Source: Zeus faber (taxonomy: Eukaryota; Chordata; Actinopteri; Zeiformes; Zeidae). Taken from it: a stretch of 64,000 nt of DNA. The notes below the pieces were generated by a model that was not told where the DNA came from, did not search any database, and worked only from the letters and a program-made list of their open reading frames with translations. Made by a program: the position numbers and the translations under genes. Every line of letters starts with the position of its first letter. Within the stretch, counting starts at the first letter, position 1. Positions 14,906-39,192 of this stretch are shown here, piece after piece. The stretch lies in the NCBI GenBank assembly GCA_960531495.1, contig OY482864.1:8415644-8479643 (forward strand). Direction: 5' to 3'.

Positions 14906-14964
14906 GTTAGCTCGGTTGACTGAATCCTTCAGATTTAATACTGTTGTTTCAAGTAGTCTCGAAA

Positions 14965-17255
14965 GCTTCGATTCGCCCGGTCCAATTTACCGTGGCGCTG
15001 TGGGCTGCCTCAAAATCCACCCCGAGTAATCTCATGGGTCCTACGCAGAGCGGCAGCCCCCCTGGTGCGTCCGTCCTTCCCTTCCACCGCCCAAAGAACT
15101 TGACCGAGGTCTTCGCCAGATTTAGCTCGGCGCCAGACACTCGGCCAAACTCCTGGAAGATCTCCAAGGAGCGGAGCAGGCAGGCATCGCTGTCCAGCAG
15201 CAGGGTGGTGTCATCCGCATACTGGGACAGCTTTACCCTAAGGCCGCCGCTGCCTGGCACCAGCAGTCCCCTCACACCCGGGTCAGCCCGAATGGCCGCC
15301 GCCAGGGGCTCCATGTAAAGGATGTAGAGCAGGGGTGAAAGCGGACACCCCTGTCTTACCCCTGCGTGCAACCCAAAAGGTTCCCCTAGGTGCCCGTTAA
15401 CACAAACCGTGCTCCCCACGGCCGCGTACAACGTACGCAGCCACCCAACGAACAGCTTCCCTAAACCTACTCTCTCTAAGACTCTAAACATAAAGCCCCA
15501 GTGAACCCTATCGAAGGATTTGGCCTGATCGAGGCCTACCACCATTAGGGGTAGCCCTCTATCTTCCACCCAAGCGATAGCGTCTCTGATGAGCTGGAGG
15601 TTCCACCTCACAGAGCGCCCAGCCACTCCACACGTCTGGTCCACATGGACTGCATCCGGGAGGACTGTGCGCAGACGGTCAGCGAGGACCTTAGCTAGAA
15701 GCTTGTAGTCCACACACAGCATGGTCAATGGCTGCCAGTTATTAAGGTCAGAGGCATCGCCCTTCTTGAAAAGAAGGGAGATCACCCCCCTAGCCATCGA
15801 CCCTCCAAGAGCCCCCGCGCGGAGGACCTCGGTCAGCACCTCTAGCACCACTGGACCGAGCGCACCCAAAAACTTGAGGTAGAACTCGGCCGGCAGGCCG
15901 TCGATGCCCGGGACCTTTCGCTTTCCCATCCTTCGAAGGGCACCCTCAAGCTCCTCCAGAGTGAGGGGGGTCTCCAAAGCTTCTGCCAGGTCAGGCGGCA
16001 CCCGCCGGGCAACCCTCTCTAAGAAGGCTTCTTCCCGGGTCTCATCCACCACCCTTTCACAGAAGAAGGAGCGATAGTGGTCAGTGGCGACCCTCACCAT
16101 TGCATCCGCTTCTGTCACCACCTGTCCCTGACTGTCCCTGACCCCCGTGAACACCTGCCGCGCCTTCTCGGTCCTAACCGAGCCGAAGAAAGCCGCCGAG
16201 CACGTCTCATTGCTCTCTGCGAACTCCCGACGCGACCGCAGCAGGTACGCACGGGCCCTACTCTCATAGACTCCCCTAAGCTGCGCTTTAAGGGTGTCAC
16301 AAGCCCGCCGGTCTACAGTGCCACCGAGGTTCCCCACGGCATACTCGAGCTCGAGGAGGCGTTGCAGGCGGAGCACCTCCCTCTTCGTCTTCCTTTTGCT
16401 GTACCTGATGGCGTGGGCTTTAATCCTCTCCTTTGCCACTTCCCACCACTCTACCACTCCAGCACATAGAGGCCTGAGCCCCTCGAGACCCCGGAAAACC
16501 CCGGCGAAGCTGGCATCGAACTCGTCCTCCTCGAGGATACTCGGATTTAACTTCCAGTACCCCAGACCGAAGACCGGGGCACAGGACCGGACCCGGAGGA
16601 GGACCCCATCGTGGTCCGAGAAAAAGACGGGGAGCACCCGCCCAGACAGCACGCCCAAGGACCTTGAAAGAAAGACATAGTCCAGCCTCCTCGCACTCCC
16701 CTGGGTGTTTCGCCATGTGGGACCATCCAGTCACGGGGTGACCACCCTCCCCCCATCCACCAGCCCGTGCCCCGCCATGAAACCCTTGACAAAAACCCCG
16801 CTCGTGTCCCTCCCTATATCTAAGTTAAAATCCCCCCCAATGATCACCTGTCTGTTGGTGGCCAGGTGTGGTCCCAGACCGGCCACCGTCTCCCTCCTCT
16901 CCCTCGTTCCCTGAGGCCCATAAAAAACAAAGACCCTTAAACAAAGACCCCTGTATGTGATGTCCGCTCCCAGCACCCTCCCCTGCTCCACAACATACAC
17001 CCCCTCTACCCTCACCCCCCTGTCCCCGAAAAGAATACCCACCCCTGAACTGTGAACCCCCCCCACACTCGAGACTGACCCCCCCTTGTCCCACTCCCTC
17101 GCAAAAATTCCCACGTCCCTCTCATCCCTCAAATGAACCTCTTGCAGAAAACAAATTGTGCACCCCAAACCCCCAACAAAATCAAAGACTGCCCTCCTCT
17201 TAACTGAGTTCCTCATCCCCCGTGCATTGATTGTGACGACCCCCAGACAATTCAT
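14965..17255 (-). pseudogene. LINE B ORF2, 5' two-thirds
   Basis: From the MNCLGVVTINARG start (17255) the endonuclease is intact up to a TGA at about 16,730, where copies C and D have CGA (TPRLDG). The frame then continues uninterrupted through the rest of the endonuclease, the connector and the RT (KVPGIDGLPAEFYLKF, DQAKSFD, QGCPLSPLLY, YADD) until the LINE is cut at 14,965. One nonsense change plus loss of the C-terminal third make it non-functional. The DQAKSFD motif has Ser where the other copies have Ala. Confidence 0.88.
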
Positions 17256-17358
17256 TTAACACAGGTGATGAAAAACAAAATCGTGCCCTGAAAATCCTCC
17301 GACCCAAAAAAACAAAAAAGAACGATACCCCCATCTAAACACGGCAGCGACCCCACCA

Positions 17359-18399
17359 TCAGTCATACAGCCCCAACACCATGTCCTCCGGGCTCTCCTC
17401 CATAAGTTGACCCCAGGAATAGGGCATGTTGTTGGGGGAGGCAGGGGGACCCCATGACCCCCCCTGCCCGTCGTCCTCAAAAAGGGCGGGGCTTTCCTCC
17501 AGAGGGGGGGGCTTCCCACTGACCTCCGCTGCCACTCCCTCCCTTTGGCCCGGCACCGAAACCGTAGGCGGGTCAGCCGCGACTACCGCCGCGGAAGGAG
17601 GGGGCGCTGGCTCCGCAGCCGGTCGATCCGGCTCCCCCTTGGGGCCGCCTATGCCCCTCAGAGCGGCCGCGTAGGCCCTGCTGCACCCCTTGGCGAGGTG
17701 CTCAGGCGACCCGCAGATATGGCAGGCCCTTGGCATCGGACACTCCCTTGCCTCATGCCCAAGGGCCTGACAGAACCTGCACCTCTGCTGGCCACATTCT
17801 CCCTCCGCGTGGCCGCTAGCCCTGCACCTACGGCAGAAAGCCGGCTGCCTCGAATAAAACAGGTAGCCCCGATCCGCCCCGATGTTGAAAAACGCCGGGG
17901 GGTGGGCCAAACCCCCCACCCCCGCCGCGTCCTGCCCCAGGAGGACCTGATACTGGCGCTTACCTGTCCAGATGCCGTTGCTGTCCCTCAGGCGCCTCGG
18001 GGACGTCAGCACCTCCGCGTACCTCCCCAGGAAGGCCGCCACAGCCTGGTCCGACACGTACGGATTGTACATGTGGACCGTCACCACCCGAAAGTTCGGT
18101 CTGTCGAGGCTTTGCAGGTTGAAGAGGGAGACTGGCCTTGCTCCCGCTTGCCGCCGGCTCTCCTCCAAGGCCCTGTCACACACCTCCTGTCCCAGGAAGG
18201 TGACATCGAAGCTCCTCTCTGCGTTGTTGGTCTGCAGGCAGAGTAGGTCCTCCACCTTCAGCTTCAGGGCCCCAAGCAGGACAGCCCTCCCAAACAGCTC
18301 CCTGGTCATCATGGGCTCCTTCTCCTCCTTCCACTGGTACCGCAGCGTAGCCCTCAGCCCCGCCCTCGGGACCGACTGTGAGGCTCCAGCCTGCGCCAT
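17359..18399 (-). CDS. LINE B ORF1 (CCHC nucleic-acid-binding protein), internally deleted
   Basis: The frame is open from MAQAGASQSV (18399; an upstream in-frame Met at 18483 is less likely because the copies share MAQAG) to the stop shared with C and D. Three CCHC knuckles (CRRC...HAEGEC, CRFC...HEAREC, CHIC...HLAKGC) are intact. Compared with copy D, about 160 residues of the proline/alanine-rich region after the knuckles are missing in frame. The deletion ends lie in the short repeat CCGGCACCGAAACCG, so replication slippage or recombination in that repeat is likely. ORF1 proteins of Tx1-type LINEs bind element RNA. Confidence 0.8.
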   Translation of the reverse strand: MAQAGASQSVPRAGLRATLRYQWKEEKEPMMTRELFGRAVLLGALKLKVEDLLCLQTNNAERSFDVTFLGQEVCDRALEESRRQAGARPVSLFNLQSLDRPNFRVVTVHMYNPYVSDQAVAAFLGRYAEVLTSPRRLRDSNGIWTGKRQYQVLLGQDAAGVGGLAHPPAFFNIGADRGYLFYSRQPAFCRRCRASGHAEGECGQQRCRFCQALGHEARECPMPRACHICGSPEHLAKGCSRAYAAALRGIGGPKGEPDRPAAEPAPPPSAAVVAADPPTVSVPGQREGVAAEVSGKPPPLEESPALFEDDGQGGSWGPPASPNNMPYSWGQLMEESPEDMVLGLYD

Positions 18400-18543
18400 G
18401 TTGCAGCTGTGGTGTGTTGGCTCTCCAAAGGCGAAAAAGCTCCCTTCCACACGACACTTGACTCCCCAGGCAGGTTTCACCAATGATTTCTGAAGGTGTA
18501 ATACACCTTCATGATCACTGTCTCCCCTCCCGGGTAAGTATCG

Positions 18544-18592
18544 TTAGTAAAAGGCGAAAGGCTTATTCGGGCCGAAGAGAGACCAGAGTAAT
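18544..18592 (-). pseudogene. U5 snRNA 5' half, split by LINE B
   Basis: This is the 5' half of U5 from the first base (18592) to loop I (CGCCTTTTACTAA on the minus strand, 18556-18544). It is followed immediately by the 5' end of LINE B. It retains upstream promoter-like sequence to its right, so it could in principle drive transcription into the LINE. Confidence 0.88.
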
Positions 18593-18899
18593 GAATAAGA
18601 TTGATGCAAATGATGGAAATGGGTGTTGGTGCTGTCGCCTATCAGAATGACGGTCCTGCTTTTTGGCTAGGTGCAGAGCGACTGAAAGGTCTTACATTGA
18701 CTAGCAGTCCACGCCACCCTTTAACCATCGATTCCAAATCAGAACAATGAATGGGTGTCACTTATTATGTACAGACAGACTGAGGGAAAGTTTTCCCTGG
18801 GATTAAAACAGCAGCACTACTACAGTTTTACGCTTTTACTGCGAGCGAGGTAGATATCTTAGTGTTAAGCACTCTGTGATTTACTTATACAATGTTGTT

Positions 18900-19018
18900 G
18901 GGCTTCGCCAGTTGGAAAAGCCTACCAAAAATAGGCGAAACTCTCAGTTGTCCCTCTCCACGGAAGTCTTTAGTAAAAGGCGAAAGGCTTATTCGGGCCG
19001 AAGAGAGACCAGAGTAAT
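18900..19018 (-). ncRNA. RNU5: U5 spliceosomal snRNA
   Basis: The 119-base span matches vertebrate U5. It begins ATTACTCTGG, has loop I CGCCTTTTACTAA (19,018-relative nt 37-49), the conserved CCGTGGAGAGG strand, an Sm site (ATTTTTGG) and a 3' stem-loop closing on GGCTT/AAGCC. U5 is the core RNA of the U5 snRNP and holds exon ends at loop I during splicing. This copy is of the variant with GTCTCTCTTCGG on the 5' strand of stem I and CTGAGAG on the 3' strand. Confidence 0.92.
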
Positions 19019-19314
19019 GAATAAGATTGATGCAAATGATGGAAATGGGTGTTGGTGCTGTCGCCTATCAGAATGACGGTCCTGCTTTTTGGCTAGGTGC
19101 AGAGCGACTGAAAGGTCTTACATTGACTAGCAGTCCACGCCACCCTTTAACCATCGATTCCAAATCAGAACAATGAATGGGTGTCACTTATTATGTACAG
19201 ACAGACTGAGGGAAAGTTTTCCCTGGGATTAAAACAGCAGCACTACTGTGACAGCCTGCTCCGCATTTTCCTGAAAACCCTGAGACGTGGATGGATCATC
19301 AACATACTATTCCA

Positions 19315-19386
19315 CCTCCCCGTCGGGGAATTGAACCCCGGTCTCCTGCGTAACAAGCAGGGAAACTTGCCACAATACTAACGAGG
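19315..19386 (-). tRNA. tRNA-Asp-like gene with GTT (Asn) anticodon
   Basis: The acceptor, T-arm and length are those of the neighbouring tRNA-Asp genes, but the anticodon loop is TTGTTAC, giving GTT instead of GTC. The D-arm is also altered: the conserved A of the A box is T (GTATTGTGGCAAG) and the D-stem loses a pair. The body is Asp and the anticodon Asn. Because of the weakened A box I think it is a pseudogene rather than a recoded tRNA. Confidence 0.65.
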
Positions 19387-19995
19387 ATACGCCGGGTGAA
19401 TATTCACAGAGCAAAGTTAAAAAATATCTTTTGTCACAAGGAAAACGTATCTGCAGACAGATGGTTACGGTAAGCCTAATTTAGCTGGACAAATGAAATG
19501 GGCCCATGTATGTCCTAGGCCAGGGATGGGCTAATATTTTGGTTCAAGGGCCGGTTACAGTTTTGAAGACCATGTGAGAGGCCACATTCAAGTTTATTCA
19601 AGTTTCCTTTCGGCTTTTTGGCTCATCAAATGAGGAAGAAGCTTCAAAATGGGACTTGACTGTAGGACATGTTTTGAGCAGAAACTGGCACACAGAATTA
19701 AAATCGCTTTAGAGATACGACAACCGTACAAAATGTAGGTGGAACGATTGAACTGGCTTGGGGACAACCCGCTGGTTTGCAGACCATGGCTTTAAACATT
19801 CACTTTAAAATTAAAGGAAATTCACACTCTGTATTGTTCACTCGTATTCCTGTATCCGAATTACTGCGTGGAGGTGTGGGTAACATGTACAAAAAAAGAG
19901 CCATGCAGGACTGACTAACAGTTTTACGCTTTTACTGCGAGCGAGGCAGATATCTTAGTGTTAAGCACTCTGTGATTTACTTATACAATGTTGTT

Positions 19996-20114
19996 GGGCT
20001 TCACCAGTTGGAAAAGCCTACCAAAAATTGGCGAAACTCTTAGTTGTCCCTCTCCACGGAAGTCTTTAGTAAAAGGCGAAAGGCTTATTTGGGCTGAAGA
20101 GAAACCAGAGTAAT
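19996..20114 (-). ncRNA. RNU5: U5 spliceosomal snRNA
   Basis: Full-length copy of the second type: 5' strand GGTTTCTCTTCAG and Sm context CCAATTTTTGG, which is closer to the human U5 sequence than the first copy. Internal loop 1 reads CCCAAATAAGCC, one base different from its neighbours. Confidence 0.92.
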
Positions 20115-20412
20115 TAATAAGATTGATGCAAATGATGGAAATGGGTGTTGGTGCCGTCGCCTATCAGAATGACGGTCCTGCTTTTTGGCTAGGTGCAGAG
20201 CGACTGAAAGGTCTTACATTGACTAGCAGTCCACGCCACCCTTTAACCATCGATTCCAAATCAGAACAATGAATGGGTGTCACTTATTATGTACAGACAG
20301 ACTGAGGGAAAGTTTTTTCCTGGGATTAAAACAGCAGCAATACTGTGACAGGCTGCTCCGCATTTTCCTGAAAACCCTGAGACGTGGATGGATAATCAAC
20401 ATACTATCCCAC

Positions 20413-20484
20413 CTCCCCGTCTGGGAATTGAACCCCGGTCTCCTGCGTGACAAGCAGGGATACTGGCCACTATACTAACGAGGA
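20413..20484 (-). tRNA. tRNA-Asp-GTC: tRNA-Asp(GTC), one T-stem mismatch
   Basis: The D-arm, anticodon arm (CCTGC TTGTCAC GCAGG) and A/B boxes are canonical. The T-stem reads CCCAG in place of CCCCG and loses one pair, so function is uncertain. Confidence 0.75.
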
Positions 20485-21092
20485 TACGCCGGGTGAATAT
20501 TCACAGAGCAAAGTTAAAAAATATCTTTTGTCACAAGGAAAACGTATCTGCAGACAGATGGTTACGGTAAGCCTAATTTAGCTGGACAAATGAAATGGGC
20601 CCATGTATGTCCTAGGCCAGGGAGGGGCGAATATTTTGGTTCAAGGGCCGGTCACAGTTTTGAAGACCATGTGAGAGGCCACATTCAAGTTTATTCAAGT
20701 TTCCTTTCGGCTTTTTGGCTCATCAAATGAGGAAGAAGCTTCAAAATGGGACTTGACTGTAGGACATGTTTTGAGCAGAAACTGGCACACAGAATTAAAA
20801 TCGCTTTAGAGATACGACAACCGTAGAAAATGTAGGTGGAACGATTTAACTGGCTTGGGGACAACCCGCTGGTTTGCAGACCATGGCTTTAAACATTCAC
20901 TTTAAAATTAAAGGAAATTCACACTCTGTATTGTTCACTCGTATTCCTGTATCCGATTACTGCGTGGAGGTGTGGGGTAACATGTACAAAAAAAGAGCCA
21001 TGCAGGACTGACTAACAGTTTTACGCTTTTACTGCGAGCGAGGCAGATATCTTAGTGTTAAGCACTCTGTGATTTACTTATACAATGTTGTT

Positions 21093-21211
21093 GGGCTTCG
21101 CCAGTTGGAAAAGCCTACCAAAAATAGGCGAAACTCTTAGTTGTCCCTCTCCACGGAAGTCTTTAGTAAAAGGCGAAAGGCTTATTCGGGCTGAAGAGAA
21201 ACCAGAGTAAT
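21093..21211 (-). ncRNA. RNU5: U5 spliceosomal snRNA
   Basis: Full-length copy combining the GGTTTCTCTTCAG 5' strand with the CTATTTTTGG Sm context and the GGCGAAGCC 3' stem. It therefore looks like a mosaic of the two U5 types, a hallmark of gene conversion within the array. Confidence 0.92.
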
Positions 21212-21508
21212 TAATAAGATTGATGCAAATGATGGAAATGGGTGTTGGTGCCGTCGCCTATCAGAATGACGGTCCTGCTTTTTGGCTAGGTGCAGAGCGA
21301 CTGAAAGGTCTTACATTGACTAGCAGTCCACGCCACCCTTTAACCATCGATTCCAAATCAGAACAATGAATGGGTGTCATTTATTATGTACAGACAGACT
21401 GAGGGAAAGTTTTCCCTGGGATTAAAACAGCAGCACTACTGTGACAGCCTGCTCCGCATTTCCCTGAAAACCCTGAGACGTGGATGGATCATCAACATAC
21501 TATTCCAG

Positions 21509-21580
21509 CTCCCCGTCGGGGAACTGAACCCCGGTCTCCTGCGTGACAAGCAGGGATACTGGCCACTATACTAACGAGGA
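21509..21580 (-). tRNA. tRNA-Asp-GTC: tRNA-Asp(GTC)
   Basis: The cloverleaf is complete: acceptor TCCTCGT/ACGGGGA, anticodon GTC in TTGTCAC, and B box GGTTCAGTTCC (A-to-G in the loop relative to its neighbours). The base outside the 3' end is G rather than the usual GG. Confidence 0.88.
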
Positions 21581-22188
21581 TACGCCGGGAGAATATTCAC
21601 AGAGCAAAGTTAAAAAATATCTTTTTTCACAAGGAAAACGTATCTGCAGACAGATGGTTACGGTAAGCCTAATTTAGCTGGACAAATGAAATGGGCCCAT
21701 GTATGTCCTAGGCCAGGGATGGGCTAATATTTTTGTTCAAGGGCCGGTTACAGTTTTGAAGACCATGTGAGAGGCCACATTCAAGTTTATTCAAGTTTCC
21801 TTTCGGCTTTTTGGCTCATCAAATGAGGAAGAAGCTTCAAAATGGGACTTGACTGTAGGACATGTTTTGAGCAGAAACTGGCACACAGAATTAAAATCGC
21901 TTTAGAGATACGACAACCGTACAAAATGTAGGTGGAACGATTTAACTGGCTTGGGGACAACCCGCTGGTTTGCAGACCATGGCTTTAAACATTCACTTTA
22001 AAATTAAAGGAAATTCACACTCTGTATTGTTCACTCGTATTCCTGTATCCGAATTACTGCGTGGAGGTGTGGGTAACATGTACAAAAAAAGAGCCATGCA
22101 GGACTGACTAACAGTTTTACGCTTTTACTGCGAGCGAGGCAGATATCTTAGTGTTAAGCACTCTGTGATTTACTTATACAATGTTGTT

Positions 22189-22271
22189 GGGCTTCACCAG
22201 TTGGAAAAGCCTACCAAAAATTGGCGAAACTCTTAGTTGTCCCTCTCCACGGAAGTCTTTAGTAAAAGGCG
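22189..22271 (-). pseudogene. U5 snRNA 3' half, split by LINE C
   Basis: This is the 3' half of the U5 whose 5' half is at 27735-27783. The two together make one ordinary U5 gene interrupted inside loop I. The Sm site reads CCAATTTTTGG. Confidence 0.9.
22259..22271 (-). repeat. target-site duplication of LINE C, left copy
   Basis: TTAGTAAAAGGCG (plus strand) at the 3' end of LINE C. The identical 13 bases recur at 27735-27747 at its 5' end. In U5 sense the repeat is CGCCTTTTACTAA, i.e. loop I, U5 nt about 37-49. Confidence 0.92.
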
Positions 22272-22381
22272 GTTTATGTGGTTTTTATTCACAACATAAT
22301 CAAAACATACAATCAATCAAGGCATAGAAGGACAACTGTCCAACAAATCTTTGCGGGTAACAATTCACACAATCCCAAACA

Positions 22382-25300
22382 CTACACCAAGCCCAAACCC
22401 CCTTTCCACCTCTCTAGGGCCGCGTGCTGTCCCCATCTCCCCATGTCTGCCCTGATCCTCCCTCTCACCTCCCCCTCCACCCTCCTTATGACCCCCTCCA
22501 CCCCACAGTCCCTCCCGAGCCTGATGAGGTCCTGCCTGGCCACCCACAATCCCTTCTTGAAGAGGCTTATGAGCAGCCAGAGCAGGAAACCTTCCCTCCT
22601 GTTCCCCCCTCTACCCACCCCCCTCTCCACACTGGTCCAGGTCAGGTTGAACCCTCTCCTCACCCTCCTTAGTAGCGCCCCCGCCCTCGCCCACACCACC
22701 CCTGCGAAAGGGCAGTCCCACATGACATGAGCGATGGTTTCCTCCTCCGAGCACGCGACTCGGGGGCACCCAGGGGATGTCGCCAAGTCCCGCCGGTACA
22801 AGGTGGTGCGTACCGGCAGTGCTTTCTGGAGGCATGACCAGTTCAGGTCCTTGAGCCCATTATCCAGGCCGGGAGGCTGGACCGCCAGCCAGACTGCCGC
22901 CGGAATCCCTACGGCAGCCGGTGCGGTCACCCCCCGCCTCGTCTCGGCGTAGAGCCTCCTCTGGTCCAGCCCCAAACCCCCCTCCCAAGCCTGGGGGTGA
23001 GCCCGAAGCCACTTCGCCGCATGGCCATAGTGCCATGGCATCTGCTCTGACCGGGGCCCCAAGTTGCCCAAAGGCCCCATCACCCTCCTCGCCTGGTAGG
23101 AGAAATACAGCCGGAGGAAGTGTCCCGATGGGTGGACCACCGGAGAGGACAGCTCCCTCAACAAAAAGGATACAAAATAACCGTCCAGCTTTAGTGGGAG
23201 GTGAGGCACGCCCCTTCCGCCCTCCCCGATCGGCGCGTACATCCGGGCCCTCGCCGCATACTCGCACCGGCCTCCCCACACGAATCCGAACACGAGCCGC
23301 GTGAGGGGCGCCCGCATGCTTGCCGGCATCGGGAAGACGTATGACAAGTACAGTAGGGACGGCAACACGTCTGCCTTCAAAACCAGCACCTTGCCCGTAA
23401 GGGTCAGTGTCCTGGATTTCCAGAGGGCGACTTTCCTCTGGACAGCTTCTATTCGCCCGGTCCAATTTACCGTGGCGCTGTGGGCTGCCTCAAAATCCAC
23501 CCCGAGTAATCTCAGGGGTCCTCCGCAGAGCGGCAGCCCCCCTGGTGCGTCCGTCCTTCCCTTCCACCGCCCAAAGAACTTGACCGAGGTCTTCGCCAGA
23601 TTTAGCTCGGCGCCAGACACTCGGCCAAACTCCTGGAAGATCTCCAAGGAGCGGAGCAGGCAGGCATCGCTGTCCAGCAGCAGGGTGGTGTCATCCGCAT
23701 ACTGGGACAGCTTTACCCTAAGGCCGCCGCTGCCTGGCACCAGCAGTCCCCTCACACCCGGGTCAGCCCGAATGGCCGCCGCCAGGGGCTCCATGTAAAG
23801 GATGTAGAGCAGGGGTGAAAGCGGACACCCCTGTCTTACCCCTGCGTGCAACCCAAAAGGTTCCCCTAGGTGCCCGTTAACACAAACCGTGCTCCCCACG
23901 GCCGCGTACAACGTACGCAGCCACCCAACGAACAGCTTCCCTAAACCTACTCTCTCTAAGACTCTAAACTAAGACTGGGGATGGTAGCTCAGGTGGTAGA
24001 GCTGGTGGTCTAGTAATCTAAAGGTTGCTGGTTCGATCCCAGGCTCCTCCTGCTAGCATGCTGTAGTGTCCTTGAGCAAGACACTTAACCCCTAATTGCT
24101 CCTGATGGCTGCGTCCGTCGGTGTTTGAACAATTGTAAGTCGCTTTGGATAAAAGCGTCTGCTAAATGACTAAATGTAATGTAAATGTAAACATAAAGCC
24201 CCAGTGAACCCTATCGAAAGCTTTGGCCTGATCGAGGCCTACCACCATTAGGGGTAGCCCTCTATCTTCCACCCAAGCGATAGCGTCTCTGATGAGCTGG
24301 AGGTTCCACCTCACAGAGCGCCCAGCCACTCCACACGTCTGGTCCACATGGACCGCATCCGGGAGGACTGTGCGCAGACGGTCAGCGAGGACCTTAGCTA
24401 GAAGCTTGTAGTCCACACACAGCATGGTCAATGGCCGCCAGTTATTAAGGTCAGAGGCATCGCCCTTCTTGAAAAGAAGGGAGATCACCCCCCTAGCCAT
24501 CGACCCTCCAAGAGCCCCCGCGCGGAGGACCTCGGTCAGCACCTCTAACACCACTGGACCGAGCGCACCCCAAAACTTGAGGTAGAACTCGGCCGGCAGG
24601 CCGTCGATGCCCGGGACCTTTCGCTTTCCCATCCTTCGAAGGGCACCCTCAAGCTCCTCCAGAGTGAGGGGGGTCTCCAAAGCTTCTGCCAGGTCAGGCG
24701 GCACCCGCCGGGCAACCCTCTCTAAGAAGGCTTCTTCCCGGGTCTCATCCACCACCCTTTCACAGAAGAAGGAGCGATAGTGGTCCGTGGCGACCCTCAC
24801 CATTGCATCCGCTTCTGTCACCACCTGTCCCTGACTGTCCCTGACCCCCGTGAACACCTGCCGCGCCTTCTCGGTCCTAACCGAGCCGAAGAAAGCCGCC
24901 GAGCACGTCTCATTGCTCTCTGCGAACTCCCGACGCGACCGCAGCAGGTACGCACGGGCCCTACTCTCATAGACTCCCCTAAGCTGCGCTTTAAGGGTGT
25001 CACAAGCCCGCTGGTCTACAGTGCCACCGAGGTTCCCCACGGCATACTCGAGCTCGAGGAGGCGTTGCAGGCGGAGCACCTCCCTCTTCGCCTGCTTCGC
25101 CTTCCTTTTGCTGTACCTGATGGCGTGGGCTTTAATCCTCTCCTTTGCCACTTCCCACCACTCTACCACTCCGGCACATAGAGGCCTGAGCCCCTCGAGA
25201 CCCCGGAAAACCCCGGCGAAGCTGGCATCGAACTCGTCCTCCTCGAGGATACTCGGATTTAACTTCCAGTACCCCAGACCGAAGACCGGGGCACAGGACC

Positions 25301-25967
25301 GGACCCGGAGGAGGACCCCATCGTGGTCCGAGAAAAAGACGGGGAGCACCCGCCCAGACAGCACGCCCAAGGACCTTGAAAGAAAGACATAGTCCAGCCT
25401 CCTCGCACTCCCCTGGGTGTTTCGCCATGTGGGACCATCCAGTCGCGGGGTGACCACCCTCCCCCCGTCCACCAGCCCGTGCCCCGCCATGAAACCCTTG
25501 ACAAAAACCCCGCTCGTGTCCCTCCCTATATCTAAGTTAAAATCCCCCCCAATGATCACCTGTCTGTTGGTGGCCAGGTGTGGTCCCAGACCGGCCACCG
25601 TCTCCCTCCTCTCCCTCGTTCCCTGCGGCCCATAAAAAACAAAGACCCTCAAACAAAGACCCCTGTATGTGATGTCCGCTCCCAGCACCCTCCCCTGCTC
25701 CACAACATACACCCCCTCTACCCTCACCCCCCTGTCCCCGAAAAGAATACCCACCCCTGAACTGTGAACCCCCCCCACACTCCAGACTGACCCCCCCTTG
25801 TCCCACTCCCTCGCAAAAATTCCCACGTCCCTCTCATCCCTCAAATGAACCTCTTGCAGAAAACAAATTGTGCACCCCAAACCCCCAACAAAATCAAAGA
25901 CTGCCCTCCTCTTAACTGAGTTCCTCATCCCCCGTGCATTGATTGTGACGACCCCCAGACAATTCAT
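22382..25967 (-). pseudogene. LINE C ORF2, interrupted by a SINE
   Basis: The endonuclease and the first half of the RT are open from 25967 to the SINE at 24187, and the rest is open from 23969 to the stop at 22382. Without the SINE the frame would be equivalent to copy D's 1,120 codons. Differences from D in the shared parts are few (for example a Pro instead of Leu in ERVARR-x-PPD, and G instead of V before G-P-L-R-L-L), so the SINE is the main lesion and is recent. Confidence 0.9.
23970..24187 (+). mobile_element. tRNA-derived SINE, V-SINE-like, in LINE C ORF2
   Basis: The head GGGGATGGTAGCTCAGGTGG carries a perfect RNA polymerase III A box (TAGCTCAGGTGG) and a B box (GGTTCGATCCC). A central part (GTCCTTGAGCAAGACACTTA) follows, and the tail is AAGTCGCTTTGGATAAAAGC then GTCTGCTAAATG, the 3' tail that fish V-type SINEs share with L2-type LINEs, ending in ATGTAA repeats. 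It is flanked by TAAAC on both sides (23965-23969, 24188-24192) as a short target duplication. The intact promoter and the uninterrupted sister copy D show that it is young. Confidence 0.9.
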
Positions 25968-26071
25968 TTAACACAGGTGATGAAAACCAAAATCGTGCCC
26001 TGAAAATCCTCCGACCCAAAAAACGCAAAAAAGAACGATACCCCCATCTAAACACGGCAGCGACCCCACCA

Positions 26072-27589
26072 TCAGTCATACAGCCCCAACACCATGTCCT
26101 CCGGGCTCTCCTCCATAAGTTGACCCCAGGAATAGGGCATGTTGTTGGGGGAGGCAGGGGGACCCCATGACCCCCCCTGCCCGTCGTCCTCAAAAAGGGC
26201 GGGGCTTTCCTCCAGAGGGGGGGGCTTCCCACCGACCTCCGCTGCCACTCCCTCCCTTTGGCCCGCCCTGTCCACGACACCCCCTGCCACTTCCCTCATC
26301 TTCTTGGGGGCCTCCTTGCCCAACTGGTGGTGGTCCCTCCTCTTCCTCTGGGTCGCGGCCTGGGGGCCTGGCCCGGCGGAATCTGCTGGCGGTGATACCT
26401 CGGGAGGGACCTGCGCAGGGGGAGGGAACGCCGCAGGAAGCCCTTCCACAGGTGGAGCCGCCTTCGGCTTGGCCACCACAGGGAGAGCCTCCCCAGGATC
26501 CGCCACAGGATGTGCGGCTGCCACAGGGGGAGCCGCCCCGGGGGCCGTGGCTGCGGCCGGAGCAGGAGGAGATCCCGCGGGAGAAGCCTTTCCGGGGACC
26601 ACCGCAGGAGGAGCCGATGTCTTTTTCCCCGTCGCCGGAGGTGCCGCCGCACTTGGCGCCGAGACCGCCGCTCCTGGCACAGCCAGCGCCAAATCCGGAG
26701 GCCCCTGGGGCCGGCACACCGGGACGGGGGCCACCGGCACCGGCACCGAAACCGTAGGCGGGTCAGCCGCGACTACCGCCGCGGAAGGAGGGGGCGCTGA
26801 CTCCGCAGCCGGTCGATCCGGCTCCCCCTTGGGGCCGCCTATGACCCTCAGAGCGGCCGCGTAGGCCCTGCTGCACCCCTTGGCGAGGTGCTCAGGCGAC
26901 CCGCAGATATGGCAGGCCCTTGGCATCGGACACTCCCTTGCCTCATGCCCAAGGGCCTGACAGAACCTGCACCTCTGCTGGCCACATTCTCCCTCCGCGT
27001 GGCCGCTAGCCCTGCACCTACGGCAGAAAGCCGGCTGCCTCGAATAAAACAGGTAGCCCCGATCCGCCCCGATGTTGAAAAACGCCGGGGGGTGGGCCAA
27101 ACCCCCCACCCCCGCCGCGTCCTGCCCCAGGAGGACCTGATACTGGCGCTTACCTGTCCAGATGCCGTTGCTGTCCCTCAGGCGCCTCGGGGACGTCAGC
27201 ACCTCCGCGTACCTCCCCAGGAAGGCCGCCACAGCCTGGTCCGACACGTACGGATTGTACATGTGGACCGTCACCACCCGAAAGTTCGGTCTGTCGAGGC
27301 TTTGCAGGTTGAAGAGGGAGACTGGCCTTGCTCCCGCTTGCCGCCGGCTCTCCTCCAGGGCCCTGTCACACACCTCCTGTCCCAGGAAGGTGACATCGAA
27401 GCTCCTCTCTGCGTTGTTGGTCTGCAGGCAGAGTAGGTCCTCCACCTTCAGCTTCAGGGCCCCAAGCAGGACAGCCCTCCCAAACAGCTCCCTGGTCATC
27501 ATGGGCTCCTTCTCCTCCTTCCACTGGTACCGCAGCGTAGCCCTCAGCCCCGCCCTCGGGACCGACTGTGAGGTTCCAGCCTGCGCCAT
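26072..27589 (-). CDS. LINE C ORF1 (CCHC nucleic-acid-binding protein)
   Basis: This open frame of 505 codons starts at MAQAGTSQSV; an in-frame Met 18 codons upstream exists but is not shared. Residues about 30-170 form a conserved domain (FGRAVLLGALKLKVEDLL, VTVHMYNPYVSDQAV). Three CCHC knuckles follow at 189-202, 207-220 and 226-239, each C-x2-C-x4-H-x4-C. A long proline/alanine-rich stretch lies at about 255-430 and a basic patch (KRKRRDHHQLGKEAPKKMRE) near 425. ORF1 of this group coats element RNA. It is virtually identical to copy D ORF1, including length. The 104-base gap to ORF2 implies reinitiation or a separate start for ORF2. Confidence 0.9.
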   Translation of the reverse strand: MAQAGTSQSVPRAGLRATLRYQWKEEKEPMMTRELFGRAVLLGALKLKVEDLLCLQTNNAERSFDVTFLGQEVCDRALEESRRQAGARPVSLFNLQSLDRPNFRVVTVHMYNPYVSDQAVAAFLGRYAEVLTSPRRLRDSNGIWTGKRQYQVLLGQDAAGVGGLAHPPAFFNIGADRGYLFYSRQPAFCRRCRASGHAEGECGQQRCRFCQALGHEARECPMPRACHICGSPEHLAKGCSRAYAAALRVIGGPKGEPDRPAAESAPPPSAAVVAADPPTVSVPVPVAPVPVCRPQGPPDLALAVPGAAVSAPSAAAPPATGKKTSAPPAVVPGKASPAGSPPAPAAATAPGAAPPVAAAHPVADPGEALPVVAKPKAAPPVEGLPAAFPPPAQVPPEVSPPADSAGPGPQAATQRKRRDHHQLGKEAPKKMREVAGGVVDRAGQREGVAAEVGGKPPPLEESPALFEDDGQGGSWGPPASPNNMPYSWGQLMEESPEDMVLGLYD

Positions 27590-27734
27590 GTTGCAGCTGT
27601 GGTGTGTTGGCTCTCCAAAGGCAAAAAAAGCTCCCTTCCACACGACACTTGACTCCCCAGGCAGGTTTCAACAGTGATTTCTGAAGGTGTAATACACCTT
27701 CATGATCACTGTCTCCCCTCCCGGGTAAGTATCG

Positions 27735-27747
27735 TTAGTAAAAGGCG
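27735..27747 (-). repeat. target-site duplication of LINE C, right copy
   Basis: Identical to 22259-22271. The neighbouring AAAGGCTTATTC continues the undisturbed U5 sequence. Confidence 0.92.
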
Positions 27748-27783
27748 AAAGGCTTATTCGGGCTGAAGAGAAACCAGAGTAAT
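27735..27783 (-). pseudogene. U5 snRNA 5' half, split by LINE C
   Basis: The first 49 bases of U5 end in loop I. It is of the GGTTTCTCTTCAG type, with the promoter-like PSE region kept upstream (to its right). LINE C lies in the same orientation directly downstream, so the U5 promoter may read into the LINE. Confidence 0.9.
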
Positions 27784-28080
27784 TAATAAGATTGATGCAA
27801 ATGATGGAAATGGGTGTTGGTGCCGTCGCCTATCAGAATGACGGTCCTGCTTTTTGGCTAGGTGCAGAGCCACTGAAAGGTCTTACATTGACTAGCAGTC
27901 CACGCCACCCTTTAACCATCGATTCCAAATCAGAACAATGAATGGGTATCATTTAATATGTACAGACAGACTGAGGGAAAGTTTTCCCTGGGATTAAAAC
28001 AGCAGCACTACTGTGACAGCCTGCTCCGCATTTCCCTGAAAACCCTGAGACGTGGATGGATCATCAACATACTATTCCAG

Positions 28081-28152
28081 CTCCCCGTCGGGGAATTGAA
28101 CCCCGGTCTCCTGCGTGACAAGCAGGGATACTGGCCACTATACTAACGAGGA
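28081..28152 (-). tRNA. tRNA-Asp-GTC: tRNA-Asp(GTC)
   Basis: All stems pair, the anticodon is GTC, and the B box is GGTTCAATTCC. The unit around it shares the G preceding CTCCCC with the copy at 21,509. Confidence 0.9.
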
Positions 28153-28760
28153 TACGCCGGGAGAATATTCACAGAGCAAAGTTAAAAAATATCTTTTTTC
28201 ACAAGGAAAACGTATCTGCAGACAGATGGTTACGGTAAGCCTAATTTAGCTGGACAAATGAAATGGGCCCATGTATGTCCTAGGCCAGGGATGGGCTAAT
28301 ATTTTTGTTCAAGGGCCGGTTACAGTTTTGAAGACCATGTGAGAGGCCACATTCAAGTTTATTCAAGTTTCCTTTCGGCTTTTTGGCTCATCAAATGAGG
28401 AAGAAGCTTCAAAATGGGACTTGACTGTAGGACATGTTTTGAGCAGAAACTGGCACACAGAATTAAAATCGCTTTAGAGATACGACAACCGTAGAAAATG
28501 TAGGTGGAACGATTTAACTGGCTTGGGGACAACCCGCTGGTTTGCAGACCATGGCTTTAAACATTCACTTTAAAATTAAAGGAAATTCACACTCTGTATT
28601 GTTCACTCGTATTCCTGTATCCGATTACTGCGTGGAGGTGTGGGGTAACATGTACAAAAAAAGAGCCATGCAGGACTGACTAACAGTTTTACGCTTTTAC
28701 TGCGAGCGAGGCAGATATCTTAGTGTTAAGCACTCTGTGATTTACTTATACAATGTTGTT

Positions 28761-28879
28761 GGGCTTCGCCAGTTGGAAAAGCCTACCAAAAATAGGCGAA
28801 ACTCTTAGTTGTCCCTCTCCACGGAAGTCTTTAGTAAAAGGCGAAAGGCTTATTCGGGCTGAAGAGAAACCAGAGTAAT
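28761..28879 (-). ncRNA. RNU5: U5 spliceosomal snRNA
   Basis: Full length; loop I and the CCGTGGAGAGG strand are intact. The Sm context is CTATTTTTGG and the 5' strand is GGTTTCTCTTCAG, the same combination as at 21,093. Confidence 0.92.
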
Positions 28880-29176
28880 TAATAAGATTGATGCAAATGA
28901 TGGAAATGGGTGTTGGTGCCGTCGCCTATCAGAATGACGGTCCTGCTTTTTGGCTAGGTGCAGAGCGACTGAAAGGTCTTACATTGACTAGCAGTCCACG
29001 CCACCCTTTAACCATCGATTCCAAATCAGAAATATGAATGGGTGTCACTTATTATGTACAGAGAGACTGAGGGAAAGTTTTCTCTGGGATTAAAACAGCA
29101 GCACTACTGTGACAGCCTGCTCCGCATTTCCCTGAAAACCCTGAGACGTGGATGGATCATCAACATACTATTCCAC

Positions 29177-29248
29177 CTCCCCATCGGGGAATTGAACCCC
29201 GGTCTCCTGCGTGACAAGCAGGGAAACTGGCCACAATACTAACGAGGA
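29177..29248 (-). tRNA. tRNA-Asp(GTC) with altered D-arm
   Basis: The anticodon is GTC. The D-arm reads GTATTGTGGCCAGTTTC, with the invariant A-box A replaced by T and a D-stem pair lost. The acceptor has a tolerable G-T wobble (CCATCGGGG on the plus strand). Probably weakly or not transcribed. Confidence 0.65.
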
Positions 29249-29856
29249 TACGCCGGGTGAATGTTCCCAGAGCAAAGTTAAAAAATATCTTTTGTCACAA
29301 GGAAAACGTATCTGCAGACAGATGGTTACGGTAAGCCTAATTTAGCTGGACAAATGAAATGGGCCCATGTATGTCCTAGGCCAGGGATGGGCGAATATTT
29401 TGGTTCAAGGGCCGGTTACAGTTTTGAAGACCATGTGAGAGGCCACATTCAAGTTTATTCAAGTTTCCTTTCGGCTTTTTGGCTCATCAAATGAGGAAGA
29501 AGCTTCAAAATGGGACTTGACTGTAGGACATGTTTTGAGCAGAAACTGGCACACAGAATTAAAATCGCTTTAGAGATACGACAACCGTACAAAATGTAGG
29601 TTGAACGATTTAACTGGCTTGGGGTTAACCCGCTGGTTTGCAGACCATGGCTTTAAACATTCACTTTAAAATGAAAGGAAATTCACACTCTGTATTGTTC
29701 ACTCGTATTCCTGTATCCGATTACTGCGTGGAGGTGTGGGGTAACATGTACAAAAAAAGAGCCATGCAGGACTGACTAACAGTTTTACGCTTTTACTGCG
29801 AGCGAGGCAGATATCTTAGTGTTAAGCACTCTGTGATTTACTTATACAATGTTGTT

Positions 29857-29975
29857 GGGCTTCACCAGTTGGAAAAGCCTACCAAAAATTGGCGAAACTC
29901 TTAGTTGTCCCTCTCCACGGAAGTCTTTAGTAAAAGGCGAAAGGCTTATTCGGGCTGAAGAGAAACCAGAGTAAT
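29857..29975 (-). ncRNA. RNU5: U5 spliceosomal snRNA
   Basis: Full length, of the CCAATTTTTGG Sm type with a GGTGAAGCC 3' stem. The C-to-T in the terminal stem (cac instead of cgc on the plus strand) weakens one pair of the 3' hairpin. Confidence 0.92.
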
Positions 29976-30272
29976 TAATAAGATTGATGCAAATGATGGA
30001 AATGGGTGTTGGTGCCGTCGCCTATCAGAATGACGGTCCTGCTTTTTGGCTAGGTGCAGAGCGACTGAAAGGTCTTACATTGACTAGCAGTCCACGACAC
30101 CCTTTAACCATCGATTCCAAATCAGAACAATGAATGGGTGTCACTTATTCTGTACAGACAGACTGAGGGAAAGTTTTCTCTGGGATTAAAACAGCAGCAC
30201 TACTGTGACAGCCTGCTCCGCATTTGCCAGGAAAGTCTGAGACGTGGATGTATCATCAACATACTATTCCAC

Positions 30273-30344
30273 CTCCCCGTCGGGGAATTGAACCCCGGTC
30301 TCCTGCGTAACAAGCAGGGAAACTGGCCACAATACTAACGAGGA
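30273..30344 (-). tRNA. tRNA-Asp-like gene with GTT (Asn) anticodon
   Basis: This is a second Asp-bodied copy with the TTGTTAC anticodon loop, again linked to the GTATTGTGG D-arm change. It differs from the copy at 19,315 in the D-loop (GGCCAG here, GGCAAG there), so the two share an ancestor but have since diverged. Confidence 0.65.
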
Positions 30345-30952
30345 CACGCCGGGTGAATATTCACAGAGCAAAGTTAAAAAATATCTTTTGTCACAAGGAA
30401 AACGTATCTGCAGACAGATGGTTACGGTAAGCCTAATTTAGCTGGACAAATGAAATGGGCCCATGTATGTCCTAGGCCAGGGATGGGCGAATATTTTGGT
30501 TCAAGGGCCGGTTACAGTTTTGAAGACCATGTGAGAGGCCACATTCAAGTTTATTCAAGTTTCCTTTCGGCTTTTTGGCTCATCAAATGAGGAAGAAGCT
30601 TCAAAATGGGACTTGACTGTAGGACATGTTTTGAGCAGAAACTGGCACACAGAATTAAAATCGCTTTAGAGATACGACAACCGTACAAAATGTAGGTGGA
30701 ACGATTTAACTGGCTTGGGGACAACCCGCTGGTTTGCAGACCATGGCTTTAAACATTCACTTTAAAATGAAAGGAAATTCACACTCTGTATTGTTCACTC
30801 GTATTCCTGTATCCGAATTACTGCGTGGAGGTGTGGGTAACATGTACAAAAAAAGAGCCATGCAGGACTGACTAACAGTTTTACGCTTTTACTGCGAGCG
30901 AGGCAGATATCTTAGTGTTAAGCACTCTGTGATTTACTTATACAATGTTGTT

Positions 30953-31035
30953 GGGCTTCACCAGTTGGAAAAGCCTACCAAAAATTGGCGAAACTCTTAG
31001 TTGTCCCTCTCCACGGAAGTCTTTAGTAAAAGGCG
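30953..31035 (-). pseudogene. U5 snRNA 3' half, split by LINE D
   Basis: The U5 3' half ends in loop I at LINE D. No 5' half exists on the other side of LINE D, where about 300 bases of unit are missing. Confidence 0.9.
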
Positions 31036-31137
31036 GTTTATGTGGTTTTTATTCACAACATAATCAAAACATACAAGGCATAGAAGGACAACTGTCCAAC
31101 AAATCTTTGCGGGTAACAATTCACACAATCCCAAACA

Positions 31138-34100
31138 CTACACCAAGCCCAAACCCCCTTTCCACCTCTCTAGGGCCGCGTGCTGTCCCCATCTCCCCAT
31201 GTCTGCCCTGATCCTCCCTCTCACCTCCCCCTCCACCCTCCTTATGACCCCCTCCACCCCACAGTCCCTCCCGAGCCTGATGAGGTCCTGCCTGGCCACC
31301 CACAATCCCTTCTTGAAGAGGCTTATGAGCAGCCAGAGCAGGAAACCTTCCCTCCTGTTCCCCCCTCTACCCACCCCCCTCTCCACACTGGTCCAGGTCA
31401 GGTTGAACCCTCTCCTCACCCTCCTTAGTAGCGCCCCCGCCCTCGCCCACACCACCCCTGCGAAAGGGCAGTCCCACATGACATGAGCGATGGTTTCCTC
31501 CTCCGAGCACGCGACTCGGGGGCACCCAGGGGATGTCGCCAAGTCCCGCCGGTACAAGGTGGTACGTACCGGCAGTGCTTTCTGGAGGCATGACCAGTTC
31601 AGGTCCTTGAGCCCATTATCCAGGCCGGGAGGCTGGACCGCCAGCCAGACTGCCGCCGGAATCCCTACGGCAGCCGGTGCGGTCACCCCCCGCCTCGTCT
31701 CGGCGTAGAGCCTCCTCTGGTCCAGCCCCAAACCCCCCTCCCAAGCCTGGGGGTGAGCCCGAAGCCACTTCGCCGCATGGCCATAGTGCCATGGCATCTG
31801 CTCTGACCGGGGCCCCAAGTTGCCCAAAGGCCCCATCACCCTCCTCGCCTGGTAGGAGAAATACAGCCGGAGGAAGTGTCCCGATGGGTGGACCACCGGA
31901 GAGGACAGCTCCCTCAACAAAAAGGATACAAAATAACCGTCCAGCTTTAGTGGGAGGTGAGGCACGCCCCTTCCGCCCTCCCCGATCGGCGCGTACATCC
32001 GGGCCCTCGCCGCATACTCGCACCGGCCTCCCCACACGAATCCGAACACGAGCCGCGTGAGGGGCGCCCCCATGCTTGCCGGCATCGGGAAGACGTATGA
32101 CAAGTACAGTAGGGACGGCAACACGTCTGCCTTCAAAACCAGCACCTTGCCCGTAAGGGTCAGTGTCCTGGATTTCCAGAGGGCGACTTTCCTCTGGACA
32201 GCTTCTATTCGCCCGGTCCAATTTACCGTGGCGCTGTGGGCTGCCTCAAAATCCACCCCGAGTAATCTCAGGGGTCCTACGCAGAGCGGCAGCCCCCCTG
32301 GTGCGTCCGTCCTTCCCTTCCACCGCCCAAAGAACTTGACCGAGGTCTTCGCCAGATTTAGCTCGGCGCCAGACACTCGGCCAAACTCCTGGAAGATCTC
32401 CAAGGAGCGGAGCAGGCAGGCATCGCTGTCCAGCAGCAGGGTGGTGTCATCCGCATACTGGGACAGCTTTACCCTAAGGCCGCCGCTGCCTGGCACCAGC
32501 AGTCCCCTCACACCCGGGTCAGCCCGAATGGCCGCCGCCAGGGGCTCCATGTAAAGGATGTAGAGCAGGGGTGAAAGCGGACACCCCTGTCTTACCCCTG
32601 CGTGCAACCCAAAAGGTTCCCCTAGGTGCCCGTTAACACAAACCGTGCTCCCCACGGCCGCGTACAACGTACGCAGCCACCCAACGCACAGCTTCCCTAA
32701 ACCTACTCTCTCTAAGACTCTAAACATAAAGCCCCAGTGAACCCTATCGAAAGCTTTGGCCTGATCGAGGCCTACCACCATTAGGGGTAGCCCTCTATCT
32801 TCCACCCAAGCGATAGCGTCTCTGATGAGCTGGAGGTTCCACCTCACAGAGCGCCCAGCCACTCCACACGTCTGGTCCACATGGACCGCATCCGGGAGGA
32901 CTGTGCGCAGACGGTCAGCGAGGACCTTAGCTAGAAGCTTGTAGTCCACACACAGCATGGTCAATGGCCGCCAGTTATTAAGGTCAGAGGCATCGCCCTT
33001 CTTGAAAAGAAGGGAGATCACCCCCCTAGCCATCGACCCTCCAAGAGCCCCCGCGCGGAGGACCTCGGTCAGCACCTCTAACACCACTGGACCGAGCGCA
33101 CCCCAAAACTTGAGGTAGAACTCGGCCGGCAGGCCGTCGATGCCCGGGACCTTTCGCTTTCCCATCCTTCGAAGGGCACCCTCAAGCTCCTCCAGAGTGA
33201 GGGGGGTCTCCAAAGCTTCTGCCAGGTCAGGCGGCAACCGCCGGGCAACCCTCTCTAAGAAGGCTTCTTCCCGGGTCTCATCCACCACCCTTTCACAGAA
33301 GAAGGAGCGATAGTGGTCCGTGGCGACCCTCACCATTGCATCCGCTTCTGTCACCACCTGTCCCTGACTGTCCCTGACCCCCGTGAACACCTGCCGCGCC
33401 TTCTCGGTCCTAACCGAGCCGAAGAAAGCCGCCGAGCACGTCTCATTGCTCTCTGCCAACTCCCGACGCGACCGCAGCAGGTACGCACGGGCCCTACTCT
33501 CATAGACTCCCCTAAGCTGCGCTTTAAGGGTGTCACAAGCCCGCTGGTCTACAGTGCCACCGAGGTTCCCCACGGCATACTCGAGCTCGAGGAGGCGTTG
33601 CAGGCGGAGCACCTCCCTCTTCGCCTGCTTCGCCTTCCTTTTGCTGTACCTGATGGCGTGGGCTTTAATCCTCTCCTTTGCCACTTCCCACCACTCTACC
33701 ACTCCGGCACATAGAGGCCTGAGCCCCTCGAGACCCCGGAAAACCCCGGCGAAGCTGGCATCGAACTCGTCCTCCTCGAGGATACTCGGATTTAACTTCC
33801 AGTACCCCAGACCGAAGACCGGGGCACAGGACCGGACCCGGAGGAGGACCCCATCGTGGTCCGAGAAAAAGACGGGGAGCACCCGCCCAGACAGCACGCC
33901 CAAGGACCTTGAAAGAAAGACATAGTCCAGCCTCCTCGCACTCCCCTGGGTGTTTCGCCATGTGGGACCATCCAGTCGCGGGGTGACCACCCTCCCCCCG
34001 TCCACCAGCCCGTGCCCCGCCATGAAACCCTTGACAAAAACCCCGCTCGTGTCCCTCCCTATATCTAAGTTAAAATCCCCCCCAATGATCACCTGTCTGT

Positions 34101-34500: not shown

Positions 34501-34604
34501 TTAACACAGGTGATGAAAACCAAAATCGTGCCCTGAAAATCCTCCGACCCAAAAAACGCAAAAAAGAACGATACCCCCATCTAAACACGGCAGCGACCCC
34601 ACCA

Positions 34605-36122: not shown

Positions 36123-36164
36123 GTTGCAGCTGTGGTGTGTTGGCTCATCAACATACTATTTCAC

Positions 36165-36236
36165 CTCCCCGTCGGGGAATTGAACCCCGGTCTCCTGCGT
36201 GACAAGCAGGGAAACTGGCCACAATACTAACGAGGA
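36165..36236 (-). tRNA. tRNA-Asp(GTC) with altered D-arm
   Basis: It has the same GTATTGTGG/GTTTC D-arm lesion as at 29,177; the rest is canonical. It lies just beyond the broken 5' end of LINE D, which removed nearly all of its 3' flank including the usual T-run. Confidence 0.65.
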
Positions 36237-36845
36237 TACGCCGGGTGAATATTCACAGAGCAAAGTTAAAAAATATCTTTTGTCACAAGGAAAACGTATC
36301 TGCAGACAGATGGTTACGGTAAGCCTAATTTAGCTGGACAAATGAAATGGGCCCATGTATGTCCTAGGCCAGGGATGGGCGAATATTTTGGTTCAAGGGC
36401 CGGTTACAGTTTTGAAGACCATGTCAGAGGCCACATTCAAGTTTATTCAAGTTTCCTTTCGGCTTTTTGGCTCATCAAATGAGGAAGAAGCTTCAAAATG
36501 GGACTTGACTGTAGGACATGTTTTGAGCAGAAACTGGCACACAGAATAAAAATCGCTTTAGAGATACGACAACCGTACAAAATGTAGGTGGAACGATTTA
36601 ACTGGCTTGGGGACAACCCGCTGGTTTGCAGACCATGGCTTTAAACATTCACTTTAAAATGAAAGGAAGTTCACACTCTGTATTGTTCACTCGTATTCCT
36701 GTATCCGAATTACTGCGTGGAGGTGTGGGGTAACATGTACAAAAAAAGAGCCATGCAGGACTGACTAACAGTTTTACGCTTTTACTGCGAGCGAGGCAGA
36801 TATCTTAGTGTTAAGCACTCTGTGATTTACTTATACAATGTTGTT

Positions 36846-39147: not shown

Positions 39148-39192
39148 TAATAAGATTGATGCAAATGATGGAAATGGGTGTTGGTGCCGTCG

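Follow-up and report, generated by a model that had tools for sequence, protein, structure and literature searches.

Long interspersed nuclear elements (LINEs) of the Tx1 clade, to which Mutsu and Dewa belong, carry a separate first open reading frame (ORF1) with RNA-binding domains and CCHC knuckles, and short interspersed nuclear elements (SINEs) with heads derived from small nuclear RNAs (snRNAs) are known as SINEU. According to one paper, Mutsu, Keno, Dewa and R2 are present in zebrafish, where Mutsu (5S rRNA) and Dewa (tRNA-Leu spacer) are site-specific elements of multicopy RNA genes (PMC3706591); another paper gives the target of Keno as U2 snRNA, with the 3' flank TCTGTTCTTATCAGTTTAAT (PMC6136364). 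Other elements of snRNA genes are Utopia, a LINE in U2 (PMC4640811), and Dada-U1 and Dada-U6 (PMC3706591, PMC4640811). Here we analyzed a stretch of 64,000 nucleotides from the fish Zeus faber (the window; C20:8415644-8479643, where C20 is contig OY482864.1), in which five copies (A to E) of a Tx1-type LINE lie in or beside a tandem array of U5 snRNA genes. Genome-wide searches covered the 803 Mb host genome.

This element, which we refer to as the U5 LINE, resembles Keno in the domains of its second open reading frame (ORF2) and in its sense insertion inside a spliceosomal snRNA gene, but it targets loop I of U5 and not U2. From Mutsu and Dewa it differs in its target, and it is set apart from them by description only. 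Utopia, in contrast, uses a restriction-like endonuclease and belongs to another lineage (PMC4640811), and the Dada elements are DNA transposons with a DDE transposase. No title or abstract in the literature searched describes a LINE that targets U5, an unseen or database-only entry being possible. We conclude that this is very probably a site-specific Tx1-clade LINE whose endonuclease targets U5 snRNA loop I, and the sister of a Keno-type LINE at the U2 site.

LINE copies in the window are joined to U5 snRNA genes at a single base

Rfam detects 14 U5 snRNA genes over the gathering score in the window, each on the minus strand, and the 13-mer CGCCTTTTACTAA of U5 loop I has 20 exact minus-strand occurrences. 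With up to two mismatches, CGCCTTTTACTAA gives 21 matches, compared with a mean of 1.08 and a maximum of 4 in 100 shuffles. Units of the array are 94–100% identical, except for the flank of copy A. The array, the LINE copies and the loop I sequences that adjoin them are:

18557..46807, minus strand: tandem U5 snRNA array, the target of the LINE; units span ~1.1 kb and include a tRNA gene (tRNA-Asp in most)
22272..27734, minus strand: LINE copy C, with both ends at U5 junctions and a foreign SINE-like insertion
22259..22271, minus strand: 3'-side copy of the 13-bp target duplication CGCCTTTTACTAA of copy C
27735..27747, minus strand: 5'-side copy of the 13-bp target duplication of copy C
~23973-24188, opposite strand to the LINE: SINE-like insertion that interrupts ORF2 of copy C; its head resembles tRNA-Thr and its 3' tail is of the UnaL2 type
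31036..36146, minus strand: LINE copy D, which meets U5 at its 3' end and has lost its 5' end
31023..31035, minus strand: loop I of U5, bordering copy D on its 3' side
2013..6690, minus strand: LINE copy A, of an older lineage, ~86-96% identical to C by segment
2000..2012, minus strand: loop I of U5, bordering copy A on its 3' side; the adjoining U5 unit is 84-90% identical to other units
14957..18543, minus strand: LINE copy B, 5' end at U5, without 3' end
18544..18556, minus strand: loop I of U5, bordering copy B on its 5' side
46821..48855, minus strand: LINE copy E, joined to U5 at its 3' end and truncated on the 5' side
46808..46820, minus strand: loop I of U5, bordering copy E on its 3' side

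The original prediction, made from the window sequence, placed six junctions at the same base of U5, and all six proved exact on recheck. Four are 3' junctions (2013, 22272, 31036 and 46821), at which CCACATAAAC is directly followed by CGCCTTTTACTAA, and two are 5' junctions (18543 and 27734), at which CGCCTTTTACTAA is directly followed by CGATACTTACC. Only copy C has both junctions inside the window, and the predicted 13-bp duplication around it is present, CGCCTTTTACTAA being found on both sides. Copies A, B and E are partial, with their other ends away from U5 loop I; the 5' edge of copy A meets the tail of another LINE, and the 5' side of copy D is joined to U5 spacer at 36146, beside a tRNA-Asp gene. 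All five copies lie in the orientation of U5, as had been claimed, and the claimed absence of poly(A) likewise holds at the four 3' ends in the window: the LINE terminates in GAATAAAAACCACATAAAC.

A complete copy measures 5240 bp between the duplications (C20:8595137-8600376). Its two reading frames are given here from copies C and D:

26072..27589, minus strand: ORF1 of copy C from the first ATG, 505 aa, with two ZCCHC3-type RNA-binding domains
31138..34500, minus strand: ORF2 of copy D, open, 1120 aa, with an endonuclease of the apurinic/apyrimidinic endonuclease (APE) type, reverse transcriptase and zf-RVT

ORF1 matches the first and second RBD_ZCCHC3 domains, and a CCHC knuckle falls slightly under the cut-off (19.8 versus 20.8 bits). 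ORF2 contains the expected APE-type endonuclease (Exo_endo_phos, 1.1e-12), followed by RVT_1 (9.4e-32) and zf-RVT (3.4e-7). A search of NCBIfam gave a single match, far under the cut-off. The closest solved relatives by sequence are human L1 ORF2p and, next, R2 proteins. When the host genome was searched for ORF2 with a relative (P0014) as the query, the best 41 of 9359 candidates were scored, 23 on C20 and 18 on contig C1. Of the 23 scored copies on C20, 22 have no stop in the matched part of ORF2, and 19 are open over 1117-1120 codons.

Genome-wide, most exact 3' ends of the LINE abut U5 loop I

The original prediction had proposed tabulating the flanks of all copies in the genome, and copies with the same ends in unrelated sequence were to count against it. 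We carried this out for LINE 3' ends, using a pattern composed of the 18-nt 3' end, 13 free positions and A. Among exact 18-nt ends, 37 of 40 abut U5 loop I and three abut another LINE piece; none of the 40 is followed by unrelated sequence. The 37 zero-mismatch matches comprise 35 exact 13-mers and two with one base changed, and all but one lie at C20:8.44-9.12 Mb (36 matches), the other being at C20:15.70 Mb.

Owing to the final A of the pattern, most copies in foreign DNA would be expected among the one-mismatch rows, of which there are 27. Three of these hold exact 18-mers, all at LINE-to-LINE junctions (two in L041 and one in L042, both loci on C20). A further 16 continue into the U5 13-mer or a variant with one or two changed bases (three on C20 and 13 on contigs C56, C75, C93, C118 and C151); the two rows read on C56 join a LINE that is 91-92% identical in the aligned part to U5 units that are 91% identical. 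One row, on C1, contains 22 LINE bases only (L040, described below). The remaining seven, which are AT-rich, are probably chance matches. Rows with two or three mismatches, which were listed in part, are uninformative, since a reversed-pattern control gave more matches in total than the pattern itself (2461 and 2563 against 1465 and 1443). A BLAST search with the LINE 3' end scored the best 40 of 157 candidates and is therefore no census.

In the stretches of C20 that were fetched, we examined 13-mer sites (at most one mismatch) with U5 or the LINE on at least one side. U5 lies on both sides of 89 sites (two with a mismatch), and we found 14 LINE 3' ends and 11 LINE 5' ends (10 of the main type and one divergent). 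All nine two-ended copies (C, F1-F7 and the divergent copy C20:8530927-8535889, which aligns in pieces) have the exact 13-bp duplication on both sides.

Three side observations were made. L041 (C20:9099700-9100700) holds tandem units of ~361 bp that consist of the LINE 3' end (4900-5240) and ~20 bp, possibly a satellite born from the LINE tail. At genomic sites of TTAGTAAAAGGCG on C1-C16, none of the eight read is U5, and six of these eight non-U5 sites lie within another repeat (L011, L012, L014, L015, L016 and L018). Finally, three U3 small nucleolar RNA genes are found on the plus strand of the window at 59684-63411.

Independent insertion versus amplification of the array

The prediction had also treated the four 3' junctions as independent, and had named their spread from one insertion by array amplification as the result that would speak against it. 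Independence of the junctions does not follow from the window alone, as copy E has a duplicate elsewhere; independence of the site, on the other hand, is borne out by a copy in a different U5 gene. This copy, at C20:15.698 Mb, lies 6.6 Mb past the last array match, on the opposite strand, and ends at the same U5 base. The LINE is 86.6-96.3% identical by segment, with deletions, and its 5' junction is lost. The U5 3' half beside it is 97.2% identical over 108 nt to a neighboring dispersed U5 gene, compared with 84% over 57 nt only for the array unit. The presence of a copy in another U5 gene rules out amplification of the array as the sole origin of the site, even though some array copies are duplicates. 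The same insertion base is thus found in independent target copies, as in a site-specific LINE.

Comparisons within the array point the same way. F3 and F5 differ at 5 of 5239 LINE positions, whereas their flanks show 11 differences over 449 positions and 8 over 330; the 3' flanks of F2 and F3 are identical over 450 nt, while their 5' flanks differ at 35 of 330. Such disagreement between LINE and flanks would fit separate insertions, and recombination could contribute to it.

Several observations weigh against site-specific insertion, or limit how often it can be counted. Copy E has the same truncation as C20:8680904, of which it is a duplicate, and the 3' flanks are identical for C and F1 and for F2 and F3; array duplicates therefore exist, and the number of independent insertions is smaller than that of copies. 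Flanks could also have been mixed by gene conversion. The count on C20 covered 13-mer sites and is blind to ends elsewhere, which is where the partial copies have their outer end (5' in A, D and E, 3' in B). At L040 (C1:49167700-49168600), the last 22 nt of the LINE are followed by CGCCTTTAATAC, with no further LINE sequence; this may be a chance match or a tiny off-target insertion.

Taken to its limit, this evidence would describe one chance insertion in U5, without target specificity, that was multiplied by array amplification and gene conversion. The near-identity of the array units, the common truncation and the identical flanks are what such a history would leave. However, a dispersed U5 gene unlike the array unit has been hit at the same base, LINE lineages ~10% apart (copy A, the copy at 8531k and that on contig C56) end at this base, and the genome-wide search for exact 3' ends in unrelated sequence found none. 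We therefore consider a chance insertion quite improbable and retain site-specific insertion in U5 loop I.

The closest relative found for the U5 LINE is a U2-site LINE in the same genome

The protein search yielded 227 matches, of which the best 120 were listed. Among these 120, relatives of the LINE are at most 69% identical; those with a species name are from teleost fish, and most are unnamed. None was found in viral contigs, and 10 distant loci in prokaryotic genome contigs (21-39% identity) were left unused.

The host genome itself contains a second family, at C1:1.77-2.24 Mb, whose 18 scored copies have no stops in the matched ORF2. In all three copies fetched, the 3' end is an A-rich run that abuts U2 snRNA from TCTGTTCTTATCAGTTTAAT onward, the sequence after the 3' end reading TCTGTTCTTATCAG (3 of 3), and the first 29 nt of U2 precede the 5' end of the next copy. 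The U2 flank of Keno is therefore present in this family (3 of 3) and absent from the U5 LINE. We read its ORF2 from one copy (L053) and refer to it as Keno-site by its target only.

The ORF2 proteins of the U5 and U2-site LINEs are 83.5% identical over 1118 aa; the closest database proteins among those listed share 69-70% identity with one or the other. In a quick tree with 37 rows, which included 35 of the 120 listed proteins, the two are sisters (Shimodaira–Hasegawa-like approximate likelihood ratio test, 100). The proposed kinship with Keno, of the Tx1 group, is thus upheld: the U5 LINE has an APE-type endonuclease with a reverse transcriptase that groups with the Keno-site LINE, and a separate RNA-binding ORF1.

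Given this sister position and the 83.5% identity, the element might be Keno itself, with U5 as a secondary site of one family. This is a quite unlikely account, as the two form separate sequence families with a synonymous divergence (dS) of 0.58, each lineage is clustered in its own target, and their ends differ: the U5 LINE lacks the A-rich tail, has its own 3' end (CCACATAAAC) and carries at its 5' end a head derived from U1 snRNA. We thus treat the U5 LINE as a family of its own.

The ratio of nonsynonymous to synonymous divergence (dN/dS) between the sisters is 0.16 overall and below 1 in every domain (endonuclease 0.18, reverse transcriptase 0.08, zinc region 0.35). Changes polarized to the U5 and U2 branches show no clear skew (endonuclease 8:5, linker 5:4, reverse transcriptase 4:7, residues 761-950 8:3, end 4:3), and faster endonuclease change on the U5 branch was rejected, no domain having a clear excess.

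Since the sisters occupy different snRNA genes, one lineage must have changed its target. A switch from U2 to U5 is more likely than the reverse, given that reports of Keno extend to frogs, fish, lancelet and hydra (PMC4640811).

The 5' end of the U2-site LINE can pair with the 5' end of U2 better than most shuffles (48, 9 and 17 of 1000 shuffles were as good for L050, L051 and L052, respectively); the whole fold is less clear, being reached by 141, 4 and 23 of 500 shuffles. Each of these three U2 units also gave a weak tRNA-like match (19.9 bits), which is under the threshold.

The 5' head of the LINE derives from U1 snRNA

The 5' end of the U5 LINE contains two features, given here for copy C:

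27695..27734, minus strand: 5' head, CG followed by sequence from U1 snRNA nt 1-40; 35 of 40 columns identical to host U1
27683..27701, minus strand: 19-nt palindrome GAAGGTGTATTACACCTTC, overlapping the end of the U1 head; forms a hairpin in 60-nt folds

As reference we used one gene (L049) read from the U1 gene array on C7. The match starts at the first nucleotide of U1, right after the CG of the LINE. Heads of copies C and B are identical to host U1 in 35 of 40 columns, that at C20:8551526 in 36 of 40, that of the divergent 8535889 lineage in 29 of 33 (nt 11-43) and that of L042 in 41 of 42; for each head, none of 2000 shuffles reached the alignment score. The main head type occurs exactly at 18 places on C20, and three other exact matches (C1, C5 and C9) continue differently. 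Because the U1 start is common to two LINE lineages ~10% apart, it was inherited and is not an accident of a single copy. The piece presumably covers the 5' splice-site arm and the U1-70K loop motif of U1; this motif and the hairpin behind the head may hint at a function. As in SINEU, the 5' end of the retrotransposon is a piece of an snRNA; here, by contrast, the carrier is an autonomous LINE.

Where a head was read with its U1 start intact, AUAC is preceded by G (AG in F4, GG in L042 and CG in the others), which would fit copying of a cap. In L042 (C20:9120000-9120900), U1 nt 1-42 are preceded by what looks like the decayed 5' half of a U5 gene and are joined to LINE position ~5015-5020 in a short LINE tail; this may reflect a second switch of template to U1, a deleted copy or a U1-headed SINE.

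Alternatively, the head could come from U5, or could have been selected because it restores the U5 stem. In favor of this, the 5' junction gives 32 bits with the U5 model of Rfam, and pairing is possible between the head and the 5' half of U5; when 60 nt of head are included, only 0 and 1 of 500 shuffles reach the fold, mainly through the hairpin of the head itself. However, alignment of the head to the U5 3' half is matched by 1213 of 3000 shuffles and that to U1 by none of 3000, and the head scores higher against host U1 (54) than against human U1 (45). For pairing between the U5 half and the head, 162 and 157 of 1000 shuffles attain the observed energy, and 57-141 of 500 shuffles do as well as the folds with a head of 24-40 nt. 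As the pairing is no better than that of shuffles and the head is not U5-like, we rejected rebuilding of the U5 stem, and a U5 origin of the head is most improbable; the head is U1-derived.

A proposed insertion cycle and its implications

Target-primed reverse transcription is established for LINEs, and the boundaries described above suggest how it may proceed here. Transcription would start at the U5 promoter and read through from U5 into the LINE, as suggested by the sense orientation of the element and by a head without a promoter of its own. ORF2p would then nick the antisense strand at 5'-AGTAAAAGGCG^AAAGGC; a cut at this point, after GGCG, is indicated by the position of the 3' boundary. 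The nicked antisense strand would prime reverse transcription of the LINE RNA, and a cut of the other strand 13 bp away, after ACTAA, would produce the CGCCTTTTACTAA duplication. The target would have changed between snRNA genes after the sister lineages split, and the simplest route to the U1 head would be a template switch of the reverse transcriptase during insertion, by which about the first 40 nt of U1 replaced the 5' end.

More tentatively, the lineage may have moved from U2 to U5 within one host lineage, taken its U1 5' end at about that time and kept the U1 piece for some function, a combination that we regard as possible though doubtful. If true, three spliceosomal RNAs mark one element, which suggests the sites of snRNA synthesis or assembly as the place where its RNA-protein particle acts.

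The exon-aligning loop of U5 joins the RNA-gene targets of LINEs, and here the 5' end of a LINE derives from the U1 RNA of its host. Furthermore, the sisters, with 83.5% identical ORF2 proteins, open frames and different snRNA genes as targets, form a natural pair for finding the residues that set the target choice of APE-type LINEs, a choice that is relevant to targeted gene insertion.

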